Source: Polyangia bacterium (GTDB taxonomy: Bacteria; Myxococcota_A; Polyangia; Polyangiales; JAUICN01). Taken from it: a DNA stretch of 38,791 nt. Below the pieces are notes generated by a model that had not been told where the DNA came from, ran no database searches, and worked only from the letters and a program-made list of their open reading frames with translations. The stretch lies in NCBI GenBank assembly GCA_030427835.1, contig JAUICN010000018.1, positions 1 through 38,791 on the forward strand, written 5' to 3'. Positions 161 to 30,247 of the stretch are shown here, piece after piece. Position 1 is the first letter of the stretch. Every line of letters starts with the position of its first letter. The position numbers and the translations under genes were made by a program.

Positions 161-1297
161 CTATCTGGAATTAAACAGTGCGTTCATGATGATATGACGC
201 TGAACGTCACTGGCCCCCTCGTAAATGCGCATTGCCCGAATGCTCGTATGTAAATGTGCGACGGTATGATTCCGGTCCAAGCCGCGGGCGCCGTGCAACT
301 GCACGCAGGTATCGATAACTTGCTGAGCGCTCTCGGTCCCTTGCAGTTTGGCCATACTGGACCACGCGATAGGAAGCAGACCTGATGGGCTTTGCCCGCT
401 AGAAGAGGACTCTTTCACAGCACGATCGAGCAGAGCTTCTCCCGTCTCTAGCTGAATGCGAGCATCCACAAGCCGCATCTGGACCAGACGATTGTCACTC
501 AGAACGCGTCCTCCTTGGGTGCGGTTACAACAATAGGTATAAGCCTCATCCCATGCACGACGGGCAAGGCCCATGGCAGCAGCTCCCACAGTCGGTCGGA
601 ACCGAGATAGGGTGCGCAATGCCGACTTCATACCGTCCTCGCACGTGACGATCTGCTCTTCGCAAACCTCAACGTTTGCGAAACGCACTGTGCCCATGGG
701 ATGGGATGCCACCAAGGCTTGCGCCCTACGCTCAACACCAACAATGGACGCAGGAACGACGACCAGGGCAAACCGAGACCCGGGGTCGTCATCCCCCGCC
801 GCGTCAACTTTGGCCAGCACAGTATAGAAATCGGCGGTTGCTCCGTGGGTGAGGTACGTCTTGGTTCCGTTCAATCGCCAACCGCTGGCGGTGCGCGCCA
901 GTGTGGTTTCGATTCCCCGCAGGTCACTCCCTGCGTTGAGCTCGGTGAGTGCAAAGGAACCCACAGTCTCCCCAGAACGTGCCTGGGAAATGCATTTTTC
1001 GACGGGAGCATGCGATGATCCGTGGAGCCCATCCGTCGAAAGCCCTTGCATCACCCACGCAAGATCCAGTCGTACATCCAACCTACACAAGCCATATCGA
1101 ATCGCGCACCGAGACGACAAATCCCCGCCGGTGGGATCGACCGCGCTTGGCAGTAGCCCCACGTCGGACAACACCGCAAGCGCTTGCTTTGTCGTCAATG
1201 CGGTGCGGTATGGAAACACTGGATCCCACCCCGTTTCCTGGAGCCGCGCACAGAGCTGCTTCAACGTGAGCTCGATCCCATCGGTGGTGCGAATCAT
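161..1297 (-). CDS. Acyl-CoA dehydrogenase family flavoprotein
   Basis: This 378-residue protein belongs to the FAD-dependent acyl-CoA dehydrogenase family, which introduces an alpha,beta double bond into acyl-CoA thioesters. Visible landmarks are the FALTELNAGSD flavin/substrate-binding segment at about residues 118-128, the C-terminal four-helix bundle, and IYEGASDVQ near the C-terminus with the usual catalytic Glu. The frame is open upstream to 1516, but I chose ATG 1297 because it overlaps the crotonase stop as ATGA and the upstream residues are not family-like. It is the last gene of a two-gene unit with the crotonase, and an aryl-CoA-ligase-like gene is divergent. The N-terminal third diverges from textbook fatty-acyl enzymes, so the substrate (fatty, branched or alicyclic/aromatic-derived acyl-CoA) cannot be read from the sequence. 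Confidence 0.85.
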   Translation of the reverse strand: MIRTTDGIELTLKQLCARLQETGWDPVFPYRTALTTKQALAVLSDVGLLPSAVDPTGGDLSSRCAIRYGLCRLDVRLDLAWVMQGLSTDGLHGSSHAPVEKCISQARSGETVGSFALTELNAGSDLRGIETTLARTASGWRLNGTKTYLTHGATADFYTVLAKVDAAGDDDPGSRFALVVVPASIVGVERRAQALVASHPMGTVRFANVEVCEEQIVTCEDGMKSALRTLSRFRPTVGAAAMGLARRAWDEAYTYCCNRTQGGRVLSDNRLVQMRLVDARIQLETGEALLDRAVKESSSSGQSPSGLLPIAWSSMAKLQGTESAQQVIDTCVQLHGARGLDRNHTVAHLHTSIRAMRIYEGASDVQRHIIMNALFNSR

Positions 1298-2121
1298 GGC
1301 ACCCCAACCCCTTTCACGGTGCCCAGGAACCGAGGCACTCGCCCTTCCTGACGGGCGACAAACGCCTCCCCAAAGTCTGGGTGGGTCATGCACCGTGCCT
1401 GGACCTCCGCTTCTTTCTGAAAGGCGTCGTGCAGGGAGAGGGATTGTTCTTCCCTCAACATCCGTTTCGTGAACTGGATGCCTGTCCTGGGCCCATGGGC
1501 CAGCTGAGTCGCCCACCGAAGTGTTTCGTTGGCTATATTCCCACGGGACACGACCTGCTGCACAAAACCCATGGAATAGGCCCGTTCCGCCGTCACAAAC
1601 TCACCCAAAAGCAGCAGCTCCTTGGCGTGGGATTCTCCGACGAGCCTTGGAAGAAGATACGTGGCGCCCATGTCGGCACCACTCAGGCCTACCTGCGGAA
1701 ACAGAAACGCGACGCGCGTGTCATCCGTGGCGATACGCAGGTCCGCGGCCGCGGCAAGTACAGCGCCTGCGCCGCACACTACCCCGTGCAGCGACGCAAT
1801 CACAGGAATGGGGCAGGTGGCAATGGCCTCCACCACATCACAGGTGAGCTGAGTAAAACGCCGAAGCTCGGATGGCTCTGCGCCCACCAACGTTCCAATG
1901 ATGTCCTCCACATCTCCTCCGGAACAAAAACCGCGGTCACCCTCCCCGTAGAGCACCACGGCCCCGAGGTCCTGCCGACGATGAAAGGACTGAAAAACCT
2001 CCAACAGCCTTCGGTAGGCTTCGAAGGTCAGCGCGTTGATACGCTCGGGTCGATTGAGGCCCACCCGGGCGATGCCGTTCTCTTCCTGAACATGGGGATG
2101 ATCCGCCGGAGAAGTGCTCAT
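1294..2121 (-). CDS. Crotonase-superfamily protein (enoyl-CoA hydratase-like) lacking canonical Glu residues
   Basis: This is a 275-residue crotonase-fold CoA enzyme. The oxyanion-hole segments are present: FCSGGD at about 65-70 and HGVVCGAGA at about 112-120. By hand alignment to rat enoyl-CoA hydratase, the Glu144 position is Val121 and the Glu164 position falls on Pro142/Gln143, so both hydration glutamates appear to be absent. Asp150, in SGADMG, sits 13 residues before the conserved PRLVG end, where 4-chlorobenzoyl-CoA dehalogenase has its nucleophilic Asp145. The His and Trp that help that dehalogenase are not evident. Members of an enoyl-CoA-hydratase-like subfamily (mycobacterial EchA12-like) share the DMG motif. 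The ATG has an AGGAA ribosome site 7 nt upstream, and the gene's stop overlaps the dehydrogenase start. The fold is secure but the reaction is open. Confidence 0.85.
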   Translation of the reverse strand: MSTSPADHPHVQEENGIARVGLNRPERINALTFEAYRRLLEVFQSFHRRQDLGAVVLYGEGDRGFCSGGDVEDIIGTLVGAEPSELRRFTQLTCDVVEAIATCPIPVIASLHGVVCGAGAVLAAAADLRIATDDTRVAFLFPQVGLSGADMGATYLLPRLVGESHAKELLLLGEFVTAERAYSMGFVQQVVSRGNIANETLRWATQLAHGPRTGIQFTKRMLREEQSLSLHDAFQKEAEVQARCMTHPDFGEAFVARQEGRVPRFLGTVKGVGVP

Positions 2122-2191
2122 TGAATGTTCCTAGCAACCTTGGTGGGCGTAGGCACCTGGTCGATGGGTTTCGTACGCCCTATTGTTGGGC
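2122..2191. promoter_or_regulatory. Divergent promoter region with inverted repeat
   Basis: These 70 bp separate the crotonase (minus) and ligase (plus) start codons, so both promoters must lie here or overlap the genes. A perfect 7-bp inverted repeat, GGGCGTA at 2145-2151 and TACGCCC at 2174-2180, has arm centres 29 bp apart. It is a plausible operator for a dimeric regulator of this acyl-CoA cluster. No regulator gene is adjacent and I see no strong -35/-10 pair. Confidence 0.35.
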
Positions 2192-3643
2192 ATGTCTGAT
2201 CCTGTGCAATGGGCCCTGGCTGCCGCTGGCCGCTCACACGTGCCGCTGGTCGCTACCGGGGCGTCCCATACGGTGGGTGCCCTGGCACAGCTTCGGGACA
2301 ACTACGTGGAGCAGTGGCACTCTCTCGGAATCGGGGCAGGCACTCGGGTGCAGATATCCCTGCCCGAGGGCCCCCAGTGGGTCGCGTCATGGGCCGCGCT
2401 TTGGAAGCTTGGTGCCGTGATTGCTGCCACGGATCCGGCGAGCACGCCCCGGGCAAATGTTCAGAAACGCTTTGCTCCAAACTTCGTTGTCGACTCCGAC
2501 GGACTGCTGCACTGCAACGGCGCGATGGAACGAATCGGAATCGCGGGAGAGCCCGAAAACCCTTACCTACCCAACCCGGCCACCGTCCTGTGGACAAGCG
2601 GTACCACGGGAGAACCCAAGGGTTACATTCACGGAAGCCGGGGGCTACAGTCCGCCATGGAAGCGCTGCAACAACACCTAGGAATAGCCACCGGGGATCG
2701 CATCCTGTGCGTGGCCCCATGGACGTTTGGGTACGGTCTGGGCATGGGATTTCTTCTGCCCATGATCTCTGGGGCCGCTTCCATTGCACTCACCGATCGC
2801 AAACATGCGTCGGTATGGGTGCGTACCGCAACCGAACAGCAAGCCACGGTTTGGGCGTTGGTGCCTTCGGTGATGGCAAGCCTGCTGCGTTCAGGTATCC
2901 GCGAGCGCTCGCTGCCCCATCCCCCTCGGCTGGTGCTGAGCGCAGGAGAACCCCTACCCCCGGCGTTGGGTCGCGCCTGGGTCCAGGCTTTTCCGGCAAG
3001 CCACCTTGTGGACGGACTGGGAAGCACCGAGCTGTTTCATATCCACCTGGCGAACCCAGTAAGTTCGTTTCAGCCAGGCCGCATTGGCCAACCCCTACGT
3101 GGGTACAACGCTAGGGTTCGAAGGGAGGACGGAACCCTTGCGGCAACAGGGGAGGTGGGGCGCCTCCATATTCACGGCCCAAGCGTCGCCACTGGAGTTT
3201 GGGCGTCTCCTGAACAGATTCACCCCGTTGACCTCGTGGATGGGTCATTTCCGTCCATGGATTTGGCAAGCGTGATGCCTGACGGTTCTTTCCGGCTCCA
3301 TGGGCGCGCCGACGATCAGTTTAAGGTACGGGGCAAGTGGGTACAGCCCACCCGGGTGGAAGCGGCCCTACTCGAACTCCCAGGCATGGTGGAGTGTGCC
3401 GTGGTGGCCGTGGATCGGGGTGATGGCCTCCAGCGCCCCGGTGCGCTCGTGGTCATGGACGACGACATTCCCTGGAACGTCGAGACGCTAGCGTCCCATG
3501 CGCAGAGCCAACTGCAGTCCCACGAGGTACCTGTGGTGTGGGTTCCATCTGAAGCGGTGCCACGGAACTCCCGTGGCAAAATCGATCGCAAGGCAGCGGT
3601 GCAACATTTCTCCAAGGGTACGGAAAACCCCAACGCGGTCTAA
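2192..3643 (+). CDS. Acyl/aryl-CoA ligase (benzoate-CoA ligase-like adenylate-forming enzyme)
   Basis: This 483-residue ANL-superfamily enzyme would activate a carboxylate to acyl-AMP and then to the CoA thioester. Motifs in order are the phosphate loop WTSGTTGEPKG at about 133-143, DGLGSTELFHIHLANP at about 275-290, the hinge/adenine region HGRADDQFKVRGKWVQP near 370-385, and the C-terminal catalytic Lys in SRGKIDRKA near 460. The DGxGSTE(L/M)xHI segment resembles benzoate/2-aminobenzoate-CoA ligases rather than acetyl-CoA synthetases. It is shorter than those enzymes (usually about 520 residues), mainly at the N-terminus. The reading frame also offers TTG at 2183, but ATG 2192 is preferred. 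It is divergent from the crotonase/dehydrogenase pair, and its TAA overlaps the stop of the convergent lipoprotein gene. The substrate is inferred only. Confidence 0.85.
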   Translation: MSDPVQWALAAAGRSHVPLVATGASHTVGALAQLRDNYVEQWHSLGIGAGTRVQISLPEGPQWVASWAALWKLGAVIAATDPASTPRANVQKRFAPNFVVDSDGLLHCNGAMERIGIAGEPENPYLPNPATVLWTSGTTGEPKGYIHGSRGLQSAMEALQQHLGIATGDRILCVAPWTFGYGLGMGFLLPMISGAASIALTDRKHASVWVRTATEQQATVWALVPSVMASLLRSGIRERSLPHPPRLVLSAGEPLPPALGRAWVQAFPASHLVDGLGSTELFHIHLANPVSSFQPGRIGQPLRGYNARVRREDGTLAATGEVGRLHIHGPSVATGVWASPEQIHPVDLVDGSFPSMDLASVMPDGSFRLHGRADDQFKVRGKWVQPTRVEAALLELPGMVECAVVAVDRGDGLQRPGALVVMDDDIPWNVETLASHAQSQLQSHEVPVVWVPSEAVPRNSRGKIDRKAAVQHFSKGTENPNAV

Positions 3644-5274: not shown

Positions 5275-6054
5275 CTACGCTGGTGACGCAGGGGCTGGTG
5301 ACGCAGGGGCTGGTGACGCAGGGGCTGGTGACGCAGGGGTTGGTGACACAGGGGTTGGTGACACAGGGGCCACCGAGGAAAGTTCGGTGAGGTCGCCCCA
5401 TGTGAGCTTGGCGTCCAGACGATTTGCCAGGTGCTCGGCGAGCTGCTGGCTGACTTGCTCAAGGGTTGGAACGGGACGCTGTCGGGATTTGCATTCCCAG
5501 GCGAGGGTGGTGACCGCGGGGTTGTCCAGACCACAGGGGATGATCCATTCAAAGGGCTCCAGGTCCGTGCACACATTGAGTGCGAGCCCGTGCATGGTGA
5601 TCCAGCGGCGAAGCCGTACACCCAGCGCGCCTACCTTTCGTTGATGTTCGGGATTCTGAACGTCAGGAACCCATGTGCCTTGTAATCCGTCCGCCCGGTG
5701 GGCGGGTACCCCATAGTGATCGCAGGTGGCGATCATGGTTTCCTCCAGGTCGCGCACATAGCGACGCACGTCCTTGCGTTCGGGCTTGAGGTCGATGATG
5801 GGGTAGGCCACCAACTGGCCAGGACCGTGGTAGGTGACAGATCCACCGCGGCCCACGTCCACCACTTCGATGCCCTTGACCTGATAGAAGGTTCGATCCT
5901 GGGGCAAATGCTCGTCCCGTGTGGACCGCCCGGTGGTGAGTACCGGTGGGTGTTCGAGCAACAACAACAGGTCGCCCACGGAACCCTGGTGGCGAGCTTC
6001 GAGAAGATGTTCCTGTAGGGAATGGGCCGACCTGTAGGGCACCTGTCCTAGCAT
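5275..6054 (-). CDS. lipB: Octanoyl-[acyl carrier protein]:protein N-octanoyltransferase LipB
   Basis: LipB transfers octanoate from acyl carrier protein to lipoyl domains in the cytoplasm, the first step of lipoate synthesis; LipA then inserts sulfur. The family motifs are all present: GGSVTYHGPGQLVAYP, the catalytic Lys in KVGALGVR, HGLALNV, and the catalytic Cys in PCGLDNPAVTTL. ATG 6054 is preferred because an AAGG ribosome site lies just upstream; ATG 6075 is an alternative. At 259 residues it is longer than usual (about 210-230) because of a C-terminal tail of roughly 30 Pro/Ala/Ser residues encoded by a 15-bp tandem array. The lipoprotein gene follows 36 bp downstream. No lipA is seen in the window. 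Confidence 0.93.
   Translation of the reverse strand: MLGQVPYRSAHSLQEHLLEARHQGSVGDLLLLLEHPPVLTTGRSTRDEHLPQDRTFYQVKGIEVVDVGRGGSVTYHGPGQLVAYPIIDLKPERKDVRRYVRDLEETMIATCDHYGVPAHRADGLQGTWVPDVQNPEHQRKVGALGVRLRRWITMHGLALNVCTDLEPFEWIIPCGLDNPAVTTLAWECKSRQRPVPTLEQVSQQLAEHLANRLDAKLTWGDLTELSSVAPVSPTPVSPTPASPAPASPAPASPAPASPA
5281..5370. repeat. Six tandem 15-bp units encoding the LipB C-terminal tail
   Basis: Six head-to-tail copies of TGGTGACGCAGGGGC lie at 5281, 5296, 5311, 5326, 5341 and 5356. The first three are identical, the fourth differs at its last base, and the last two carry CACA for CGCA. They encode ASPAP/TPVSP pentads just before the stop, which lies at the array edge. The near identity suggests recent slippage expansion. 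Confidence 0.95.
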
Positions 6055-6346
6055 GTAGGCCCTTAGACTACGCATGCCGACAACGTAGCATTTTGACCCG
6101 AAAAAGCGCACATTCCGCAAATTCGTTTTTCCACTGCCGAACGTCGGATCGCGTCATTTTTTTTGGGGTGGACAAGTTGTGTACAAATCGTCGGAACAAA
6201 CCATAAATGCAGGGCGTTCTTCCTTTGTGTGCATTTTTTGTTTCCTAGCGATGGCCAGGTGTACGGCACACGGAGCTTGCATCGGCGAACAAATTCGCCA
6301 CAAAGATAGGTCGCAGGACACTGCAAACCCTTGGGGGGGGCTATTG
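6055..6346. promoter_or_regulatory. Divergent intergenic region between lipB and the diguanylate cyclase
   Basis: This stretch of about 290 bp is more AT-rich than its surroundings, with an eight-T run near 6157-6164. It must carry the promoters of lipB and the GGDEF gene. The frame of the GGDEF gene is open back to GTG 6179, but the upstream residues are not domain-like. TGTGTACAAA at 6178-6187 recurs upstream of purQ (15521-15530), which may be chance. I see no convincing -35/-10 pair or RNA structure. Confidence 0.4.
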
Positions 6347-7632: not shown

Positions 7633-10575
7633 CTAGGCTTCGGGACTATTCTGGAGATTGAGCGGCTGGAGGGGGTCGTTGTGTTCGCCGGAGTCGGGGT
7701 GGGTGAAGTAGATGTTGGTGCGGACCAGGGGGCCGATTTGGTGGCGGGTGATTTTTCCCTGGGTGACAGACTCCAGGACTTCACCTGGGCGGGCGGTGCC
7801 GGTGGGATCCATGCGGACGGTCATGGTGACGGGAACGAAATCACCGAGGGCACCTGCGGTGTCCAGGGCCTGGCTTTTATCACCCACGTGAATGTCCTTC
7901 AGGTAGTTGGCCACCTGCACGGTGCGGGTGGCGTCCTTCACCTTTCGGTCGATGGTGTTGGGCTGCTGTGCGCCCCGGGCAATGAGCTGTGCCAGGCTGT
8001 TTTCGTCCAGCTGGGACTCGTGCAGGAACTTCTTGGGAATGCCCGCCACCAGGTCAAGCGTGTTGGCCACGTGGCCCAGGCCCTTCTCGCCAGGTTTGAG
8101 AAAACGGGCGGCCAGGAACTGAATACCCTCCACGGTGGCGCCGTTGAGCTGCGTGAGAATGCGATCCACGTCCTCGGTGGGTAGCCGGTTGTGTTGGAGC
8201 TTCACGTCCACCAATTCGGCCAGGCTTGCGGTGCCCACGGGGAGGGAAAGGCCAAAGGTCATGGCGGGCTTGGGGTGGTAGCCCTGGCTGTAGAATACGG
8301 GGAGCTCCGCACGGCGCAGAATCCGGGGCAGCAGGCGAATGAGATCCAGATGGGAACTGAAGCTCGCTCGACCCAGGCGTGTGTAACGCAGGCGCAGGCG
8401 GATGGGATCGCCCTGATCCCATTGGGGGATGGGATGCTTTTTGGATCCCTTGGGCTTCATGGTCTTGGGCCGCGGTTCTCCTGAAGTTTCTGCCTGCAGT
8501 GCCCCCGGTACTTCTGCTGGGAGCTCCGCGAGCGCCGCCGCGGGTACCGCCGCTGGCAACCCTACGGGTGTTTTCACCGGAACCTCAGCTGGATGGACCC
8601 TGGGCTGTTCGGCACCGAGTTGAACCAGGAAATCCTTTCGCTGGGAGCGCATCTTGCCCATGTCGCAGGCAATGCCGCAGTCGTAACAAACCAGCTTGCG
8701 GGAATCCGCATTCGCTTGGGCCAGGTGGGTGGCGTGCACAAAGTCACCGGCGGCTTTTCCACAGGGGGGGCTTAGGCGGTTGCGCAGGGACTTCTTGTAT
8801 TCCCGGGCCAGGAAGTCTTCCTCTAGGCCCACGTCAATATGATCCCAGGGGAGCCGCGCATCGATGGGGATGGTACCGAGGTAGCGTGCCGGATCTACGT
8901 CGTGCTCGGTGAAGGCGTTGCGCCAAACGTCGAGTTTTAGATGCTCCTGCCAGGAGTCAAAACGCGCGCCGTTTAGGTAGGCGGTTTCCAGCACGTTGGC
9001 CATGGTCCGGTCGCCCCGGGCAAGCACACCCTCGATCCAGGAGCCCTCCGGATTGTGCGTACGTAGCTTGAGCCGTGCCTTGAACCCGCTGTGGTAGACC
9101 TCGTTGCGCAACATGGATTGCTTGGTGCGCACGGTTTCGTGGTCGTCCATGGCACACCACTGGAAGGGCGTGTGGGGCTTGGGTACGTGGGTGCTTACAC
9201 TGACGGTAACGGTGGTGTTGTTCTTCTTGAGGGTGCGTGCCACCTGCAGGGCCCGCGCGCCGGTTTGCACAATGCCGCGCACGTCCTCTTCCTCCTCGGT
9301 GGGCAGGCCTATCATGAAGTAGAGCTTCATTTTCTGCCACCCACGGGAGAACACGCGATGCGCCGTTTCCAGCAGCTGTTCTTCGGTGACGTTCTTGTTC
9401 ACCACGTCGCGCATGCGTTGGGTACCGGCCTCGGGGGCAAAGGTGAGGCCACCGGTATTGGTTTTGCGCAGGTCGTCCAGTACGGCTTCGTCCAGGCCGT
9501 AGGCCCGCAGGGAGGATACGGACAACGAGACCTGCTCCTTTTGTAGGCGCTCCGTCAGCTCACCCACAAGCGGCGCCACGGCACTGTAGTCTGCGGTGGA
9601 AAGTGAAGTCAGCGAAGCTTCGTCGTAGCCGTTGCAGTTGACGGATTGGTCGATGACGTTGAGAATTTGTGCGGGGCTACGTTCGCGCACGGGGCGGTAG
9701 ATCATGCCGGCCTGGCAAAAACGACACCCTTCGGTGCAACCCCGGGCCACTTCCACGGACACACGATCAAATACGGTTTCGGTGACCGCCACCGGGCCGT
9801 CAGAGGGAAACGGGTATTCTTCTAGGTCCTGGACAAACGTGCGCTCCACGGGGAACGGTATGGTGCCGTCACGGGAACCTACCGGCGCGGCCACCACGTG
9901 AAACCCGGTGTCTGCTTGCTCTTCAGTAACGTAGAGAGCCGGAACGTACACACCCTGGATCTGGGACAGGGCGCGGATGCGTTGGGCACGGGGTTGGCCC
10001 CGGGTGTTGGACCAGGAGGTGAGAATGTCTGGGGTGCACTGTTCGCCGTCGCCGATGACAAAGGCATCCACAAAGGGTGCAATGGGTTCGGGGTGGGTGG
10101 CGACCGGACCGCCGCAAAGCACAAGGGGATGGGCGTCGGTTCGATCCGCCGAGCGCAGGGGAATGCCGCCCAGGTCCATCATGAGCAGTACATTGGTGTA
10201 GGTCAGTTCAAACTGCAGCGAGAACCCCACCACGTCGAAATCGGAAAGGGGGCGCCAGGACTCCAGGCTGAGCAGGGGCTGACCGTGCTCCCGGAGGGCC
10301 TGCTCCATGTCAAGCCAGGGGGCATAGGCCCGTTCGGCAAGGAACCGCGGATCCTGGTTGAGCAAGCTGTAGAGAATGCGAAACCCCAGGTGGCTCATGC
10401 CCACCTCGTAGAGGTCCGGGAAGGCCAGGCACATGCGTACATCCACACGGTCCCAGGCCTTGGGCGTGCTGCCCATCTCGCCGCCCACGTACTGGGCCGG
10501 CTTTTTCACCTGTTTAAGGAAAGAGGAGTACGGGTGCTCGTGCACCGAGGGGGTGCTGGGAATGGAGTGGGACAC
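7633..10575 (-). CDS. TIGR03960-family B12-binding radical SAM protein fused to DUF2344
   Basis: This 980-residue two-part protein has an N-terminal cobalamin-binding-like region (about 1-250) and then a radical SAM core with the [4Fe-4S] motif CTEGCRFC (CxxxCxxC, at about 280-290). A Cys cluster, CYDCGIAC, lies near 640. A Pro/Ala-rich linker (about 660-715) leads to a TIGR03936/DUF2344 domain (about 720-940) beginning RLRLRYTRLGRASFSSHLD. The combined architecture is the known TIGR03960 type. I know of no settled reaction; homologues often lie near ribosome or RNase G genes, which is not the case here. The start is GTG 10575, with AGGA about 10 nt upstream. It lies 32 bp downstream of the anti-sigma gene, so it may share that transcript. 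The linker again has pentad periodicity. Confidence 0.9.
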   Translation of the reverse strand: MSHSIPSTPSVHEHPYSSFLKQVKKPAQYVGGEMGSTPKAWDRVDVRMCLAFPDLYEVGMSHLGFRILYSLLNQDPRFLAERAYAPWLDMEQALREHGQPLLSLESWRPLSDFDVVGFSLQFELTYTNVLLMMDLGGIPLRSADRTDAHPLVLCGGPVATHPEPIAPFVDAFVIGDGEQCTPDILTSWSNTRGQPRAQRIRALSQIQGVYVPALYVTEEQADTGFHVVAAPVGSRDGTIPFPVERTFVQDLEEYPFPSDGPVAVTETVFDRVSVEVARGCTEGCRFCQAGMIYRPVRERSPAQILNVIDQSVNCNGYDEASLTSLSTADYSAVAPLVGELTERLQKEQVSLSVSSLRAYGLDEAVLDDLRKTNTGGLTFAPEAGTQRMRDVVNKNVTEEQLLETAHRVFSRGWQKMKLYFMIGLPTEEEEDVRGIVQTGARALQVARTLKKNNTTVTVSVSTHVPKPHTPFQWCAMDDHETVRTKQSMLRNEVYHSGFKARLKLRTHNPEGSWIEGVLARGDRTMANVLETAYLNGARFDSWQEHLKLDVWRNAFTEHDVDPARYLGTIPIDARLPWDHIDVGLEEDFLAREYKKSLRNRLSPPCGKAAGDFVHATHLAQANADSRKLVCYDCGIACDMGKMRSQRKDFLVQLGAEQPRVHPAEVPVKTPVGLPAAVPAAALAELPAEVPGALQAETSGEPRPKTMKPKGSKKHPIPQWDQGDPIRLRLRYTRLGRASFSSHLDLIRLLPRILRRAELPVFYSQGYHPKPAMTFGLSLPVGTASLAELVDVKLQHNRLPTEDVDRILTQLNGATVEGIQFLAARFLKPGEKGLGHVANTLDLVAGIPKKFLHESQLDENSLAQLIARGAQQPNTIDRKVKDATRTVQVANYLKDIHVGDKSQALDTAGALGDFVPVTMTVRMDPTGTARPGEVLESVTQGKITRHQIGPLVRTNIYFTHPDSGEHNDPLQPLNLQNSPEA

Positions 10576-30083: not shown

Positions 30084-30232
30084 CGCAGCAGAGTACCACG
30101 AACCGCCCCGCCCCCGTCACCCATTGCCGATTCGACCCAGGTTCGATTTCGCACTCGACCCAGGGTCGTTTTGGCACTGCAGACTTCAATGATCTCAATC
30201 ACTTTCCCGAGTGTGGCCCAGAAATCCTCCAT
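30080..30232 (-). CDS. Possible 50-residue leader ORF coupled to the TPR gene
   Basis: The frame starts ATG GAG GAT, encodes MEDFWATLGKVIEIIEV followed by a basic stretch, and stops at TGA 30080-30082, overlapping the GTG start of the TPR gene. That overlap is what coupling would look like. However, it runs through two copies of the GACCCAGG repeat, has no clear ribosome site, and matches no family that I know. It may be a relic of a mobile element rather than a gene. Confidence 0.2.
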   Translation of the reverse strand: MEDFWATLGKVIEIIEVCSAKTTLGRVRNRTWVESAMGDGGGAVRGTLLR

Positions 30233-30247
30233 TTGACCCAGGTTGCG
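30131..30247. repeat. Three direct copies of (T/C)TCGACCCAGG-type motif
   Basis: The copies are TTCGACCCAGGTTCGA (30131-30146), CTCGACCCAGGGTCG (30154-30168) and TTTGACCCAGGTTGCG (30232-30247). They are the reverse complement of the two copies at 88-157. A shorter AGGTCAAATTTT lies at 30290-30301 in the other orientation. The flanking DNA is clearly more AT-rich than the genes around it. This may be an eroded IS21-type end or a dispersed protein-binding site. Confidence 0.5.

Follow-up and report, generated by a model that had tools for sequence, protein, structure and literature searches.

Which reaction does a crotonase-fold enzyme catalyze when both glutamates of an enoyl-CoA hydratase are replaced and a single aspartate is left in its active site? 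The question arises at one end of a contig from a Polyangia bacterium. The contig was analyzed whole, and all 38,791 bases of it are the window of this study (contig C4). The minus-strand open reading frame at positions 1294 to 2121 (275 aa) codes for a full-length crotonase, which matches Pfam ECH_1 at 1.6e-45. The genes around it are as follows.

161 to 1297, minus strand: acyl-CoA dehydrogenase, 378 aa; the RIYEGASD motif is kept, with the usual catalytic Glu
1294 to 2121, minus strand: Asp-type crotonase (PRK08258-like), 275 aa; Asp150, Val121, Pro142 and Phe141
2122 to 2182, no strand: short intergenic region, the gap between the divergent crotonase and ligase genes
2183 to 3643, plus strand: AMP-forming acyl-CoA ligase, divergently oriented; TIGR02262 199 bits, below the cut-off of 375

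The stop codon of the crotonase gene and the start codon of the acyl-CoA dehydrogenase gene overlap as ATGA. Therefore, the coupling of these two genes, part of the original prediction for this locus, is real. The acyl-CoA dehydrogenase gene ends 160 bases from the contig edge. Judged by its sequence, the ligase is related to the benzoate- and aminobenzoate-CoA ligases, and a 2-aminobenzoate-CoA ligase activity is putative.

We aligned the crotonase with rat enoyl-CoA hydratase, 4-chlorobenzoyl-CoA dehalogenase and dienoyl-CoA isomerase, each letter-for-letter identical to its PDB chain; the same alignment also took in PaaG, 3g64 and part of E. coli MenB. Val121 falls at the position of rat Glu144, and Pro142 at that of Glu164. 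These are the replacements that the original prediction had read from a hand alignment. An enoyl-CoA hydratase is recognized by Glu144 and Glu164 together, and the window crotonase has Val121 and Pro142 in their place. Asp150 lies opposite Asp145 of the dehalogenase at an identical distance from the conserved Gly162, also as predicted. Among the known catalytic positions, Asp150 is the sole candidate acid-base group in the alignment. One additional residue (VGLSGADMG) precedes the aspartate in the window clade relative to the dehalogenase, PaaG and the dienoyl isomerase, a feature that had previously been missed. An AlphaFold2 model built with 42 aligned relatives has a confident crotonase fold (pLDDT 88.4, pTM 0.88) in which a helix begins at Asp150. 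Gly69 and Ala118 align with Gln61 and Ala105 of PaaG. A combination of the Val121/Pro142/Asp150 type is absent from six other crotonases of the same genome.

These residues are conserved. Across 82 clade sequences, one of them the window protein, Asp150, Met151 and Gly152 are invariant, and 79 of the 82 have Val at position 121. Because this set was found partly through a motif spanning the Asp site, we examined 24 further relatives obtained by HMM or tblastn, a few of which share contigs with loci of the first set. All 24 have Asp150 and Phe141. Position 121 is Val or Ile in every one of them, and position 142 is Pro, Thr or Asn, never Glu. The residue pattern is more than chance. The clade is found in Gemmatimonadota, Planctomycetota, Myxococcota, Acidobacteriota, Pseudomonadota and Deinococcota, often beside pathway genes. 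The observation of an Asp crotonase at this locus is thus real, conserved and explainable.

The best NCBIfam model for the protein is PRK08258 (NF006107), at 314.8 bits (315.6 bits by genome search); the next family scores 149, 165 bits lower. The curated cut-off of PRK08258 is 330 bits, so the window protein is formally outside the family by about 15 bits, whereas relatives within the conserved gene cluster score 392 to 500 bits, above that cut-off. In a tree, one clade joins the window protein, PRK08258-type relatives and 3g64 with support of 97/98; the tree is small (22 rows) and its deep forks are weak, and we used this node alone. 3g64 is a Streptomyces coelicolor protein of PRK08258, named 'enoyl-CoA hydratase family protein'. 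It matches the window crotonase over the full length at 46% identity and shares the GAGAV and VGL(S/A)G.DMG motifs. On these scores and this node, the window crotonase is a divergent member of the PRK08258 clade and not a certified equivalog. The original prediction had suspected an uncharacterized subfamily and called for a tree and a superposition on the dehalogenase. The tree leads to a family that is already catalogued and whose pathway is known, and the part of the suspicion that stands is that its reaction appears unassigned. Superposition of the model gave Z scores of 34.3 for 3g64, 32.9 for PaaG, 32.2 for the dienoyl isomerase and 30.5 for the dehalogenase, which places the dehalogenase somewhat below the other three. 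All four share the fold, and Foldseek/VIA rankings served for fold only. Since the clade is without both hydratase glutamates, its database name 'enoyl-CoA hydratase' is put in question.

To see the company that this crotonase keeps, we fetched 80 relatives and surveyed their flanking genes. RidA is near the crotonase in 74 of the 80, an acyl-CoA dehydrogenase in 68, an SDR in 61 and a creatininase-like hydrolase in 49. The PRK08255 fusion, a flavin monooxygenase joined to an old-yellow-enzyme reductase ('salicylyl-CoA hydroxylase/oxidoreductase'), is near it at 41 loci; kynureninase is nearby at 34 and tryptophan 2,3-dioxygenase at 32. About half of the loci have no fusion within the fetched flank. 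The typical order, on one strand, is hydrolase, SDR, RidA, crotonase, acyl-CoA dehydrogenase, fusion, dioxygenase and kynureninase. Five annotated plasmids, from Ruegeria, Comamonas, Deinococcus, Azospirillum and Pseudochrobactrum, keep an ordered set of fusion, SDR, crotonase and acyl-CoA dehydrogenase genes. All five have a ligase of the AMP-forming or benzoate-CoA kind nearby, all but that of Comamonas have RidA, and most have MarR regulators; Comamonas also has branched-chain ABC transporter genes. Mycetohabitans is an exception, with fewer annotated neighbors around the crotonase. At the Mycetohabitans endofungorum locus (L131:6932-10997), the crotonase is found with a thioesterase and a ligase, and the fusion and acyl-CoA dehydrogenase are missing from the gene table, gaps that suggest unlisted or decayed genes. 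In another fusion (L092:3098-5509), the FAD half reaches 20.3 bits in Pfam (cut-off 22) and the reductase half is clear; this protein may have an altered substrate.

The gene layout of the relatives is that of the aerobic 2-aminobenzoyl-CoA pathway, in which anthranilate (2-aminobenzoate) is degraded in the form of its CoA ester. The abm gene list of Azoarcus evansii reportedly includes a ligase, a monooxygenase/reductase fusion and beta-oxidation type enzymes. The crotonase relatives resemble it in being surrounded by the same three kinds of gene, with RidA in addition. The window genome differs from it: its fusion is unlinked, and neither a cluster RidA nor a kynureninase was detected there. 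One such fusion in Arthrobacter is 50% identical to its Azoarcus counterpart, and a C7H8O4 CoA ester that may be cyclohexanedione-carboxyl-CoA was seen there in anthranilate-grown cells only (PMC3534580).

The fusion of the window genome is on another contig (C5:3173-5380). Its best family is PRK08255 (643.6 bits, below the cut-off of 1078), it is divergent (36%), and it has an internal glycine-rich RGGTQ repeat. Contigs C4 and C5 both begin near pathway genes, and we looked for a join. The first 3 kb of each share no 15-mers, and C5 opens with opposite-strand genes resembling pyridine nucleotide transhydrogenase. Therefore, we claim no physical linkage between the two. Across 38 genomes of the same order, a full-length fusion is present in 19 of 19 genomes with the crotonase versus 1 of 19 without it, often on other contigs (Fisher 1.1e-9, shared descent uncorrected). 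Three crotonase-less genomes that match the reductase half only were not scored as having the full-length fusion. Kynureninase was not detected in the window genome with the TIGR01814 model. This model is a weak detector that gave a cluster kynureninase just 24.8 bits, and so the absence is weaker than it looks. There is no RidA at the window locus, where the contig edge is nearby. A search of the genome detected no cluster-type RidA; its RidA-family matches elsewhere are one strong, apparently generic RidA and a weak match on contig C8 that does not match the cluster RidA.

We conclude that the window protein is probably an Asp-based, non-hydratase crotonase of an aerobic 2-aminobenzoyl-CoA (abm) type pathway. 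Its clade membership, the invariant Asp150, the loss of both hydratase glutamates and the linkage or co-occurrence of the clade with the fusion carry this assignment. Against it stand the score 15 bits under the PRK08258 cut-off, the undetected kynureninase and cluster-type RidA, the divergent and unlinked fusion, and the roughly half of relatives' flanks without a fusion.

In crotonase chemistry, two backbone amides stabilize a thioester enolate. Here, the backbone of Gly69 and Ala118 would form the oxyanion hole that holds the CoA-thioester enolate. The crotonase would act after the monooxygenase step. RidA would turn the amino group of the monooxygenase/reductase product into a ketone, and the resulting substrate would be a non-aromatic beta-keto thioester of the 2,5-dioxocyclohexanecarboxyl-CoA type. 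Asp150 may then activate a water that opens the ring between C1 and C2, as the chemistry and the gene order suggest, and the acyl-CoA dehydrogenase would begin beta-oxidation. We tentatively favor this ring opening between C1 and C2 as the most likely step. To our knowledge, the opening of the ring in the aerobic 2-aminobenzoyl-CoA pathway has no assigned enzyme. The crotonase is ordinary as a gene, and what it points at is this step, apparently unassigned, in a known pathway. As the clade conserves a single acid-base residue at the known positions, a few purified enzymes would suffice for a direct test of the missing step.

BadI and MenB offer a parallel for the C-C chemistry that we propose for a cyclic beta-keto thioester, and the loop has the length seen in MenB. 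However, the MenB aspartate lies two columns earlier than Asp150 in the alignment, so a ring-opening role is without direct residue precedent. The BadI model is not among the best 25 families for the window crotonase. In a bolder form, the clade would be a new crotonase type, an Asp-based, glutamate-free, ring-opening C-C hydrolase that arose independently of BadI and MenB, and the window block would have lost RidA and may use an amino-free substrate. We regard this form as conceivable but somewhat doubtful.

The main rival to ring opening is proton shuttling of the PaaG (1,2-epoxyphenylacetyl-CoA isomerase) type within the same pathway, and it is a real possibility. Asp150 would move a proton between C2 and C4, or convert an enamine to an imine, and leave the ring intact. 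The catalytic Asp136 of PaaG falls exactly in the column of Asp150, where PDB 6sla, a D136N variant, has Asn, and Asp136 is a proton shuttle and proven acid-base residue (PMC7497051). The dienoyl-CoA isomerase also has Asp in this column. Asp150 is thus the counterpart of an acid-base residue known in related isomerases and no sign of a dehalogenase. The window protein has the Asp136 equivalent and no hydratase glutamates, and the Thermus PaaG likewise lacks glutamates at those columns. PaaG is the nearest characterized structure (Z 32.9, 34% identity). RidA, which belongs to a family (Rid) that acts on imines, adjoins the crotonase in relatives. However, PaaG is without the additional loop residue of the clade and belongs to another pathway. 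As an exact family PaaG was rejected (TIGR02280, 142.4 bits versus a cut-off of 345), and it was retained as a mechanistic rival.

The block may instead have been retained for another ortho-substituted benzoyl-CoA without an amino group (e.g., salicylyl-CoA), which is compatible with either a ring-opening or an isomerase mechanism. The missing RidA and kynureninase would then be explained, and the ligase and fusion of the window genome are indeed divergent. However, only 160 bases separate the acyl-CoA dehydrogenase gene from the contig end, so further neighbors may lie beyond it; the genome does have a generic RidA, and anthranilate is obtainable from outside the cell. We consider such a substrate unlikely.

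It is quite improbable that the protein is the ordinary beta-oxidation enoyl-CoA hydratase of its database name, working through Asp150 or water alone. Its annotation and the adjoining acyl-CoA dehydrogenase would agree with that role, and PMC4539516 attributes the later steps of the Azoarcus pathway to beta-oxidation enzymes. However, the relatives examined have neither glutamate at the two columns, and at least one cluster co-encodes a two-glutamate hydratase. The Pseudochrobactrum cluster includes a FadB-like protein with both glutamates intact in its hydratase domain (GGGCE, GLPE), and thus already has an ordinary hydratase of its own. The lost glutamates and this FadB-like hydratase make ordinary hydration unlikely, and the residues and gene context agree with the original prediction on this point and on aryl-CoA chemistry.

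A halobenzoyl-CoA dehalogenase in which Asp150 is the covalent nucleophile, an analogy first suggested by Asp145 and the adjacent aryl-CoA-ligase-like gene, is highly improbable and was rejected, because the Asp column is common to PaaG and the dienoyl isomerase, whose structures fit somewhat better, and because the dehalogenase Trp137 is replaced by Phe141, which is invariant in relatives. The likeness to the dehalogenase (1nzy) lies in the fold and the Asp position, at 22% identity; His90 falls in an alignment gap, and the relatives' context is anthranilate breakdown without any dehalogenation context.

Other features of the window were recorded in passing. It has 13 tandem-repeat arrays, mostly of 15-bp period. 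One of these (5279-5370) is the proline-rich pentapeptide tail of a LipB-like protein (5275-6120, minus strand). In-frame growth of 15-bp repeats may be common in this genome, since the C5 fusion also has an RGGTQ pentapeptide expansion. A radical SAM protein at 7633-10575 combines Radical_SAM_N2 and DUF2344 in one 980-aa chain. The sequence GACCCAGG occurs 9 times in the window versus 3.1 expected, and 1 of 100 shuffles reaches 9. Its sites at 91-98, 147-154, 30134-30164 and 30235-30242 hold two copies just past the acyl-CoA dehydrogenase gene and three near 30.1 to 30.2 kb, and it is also found near the start of C5.
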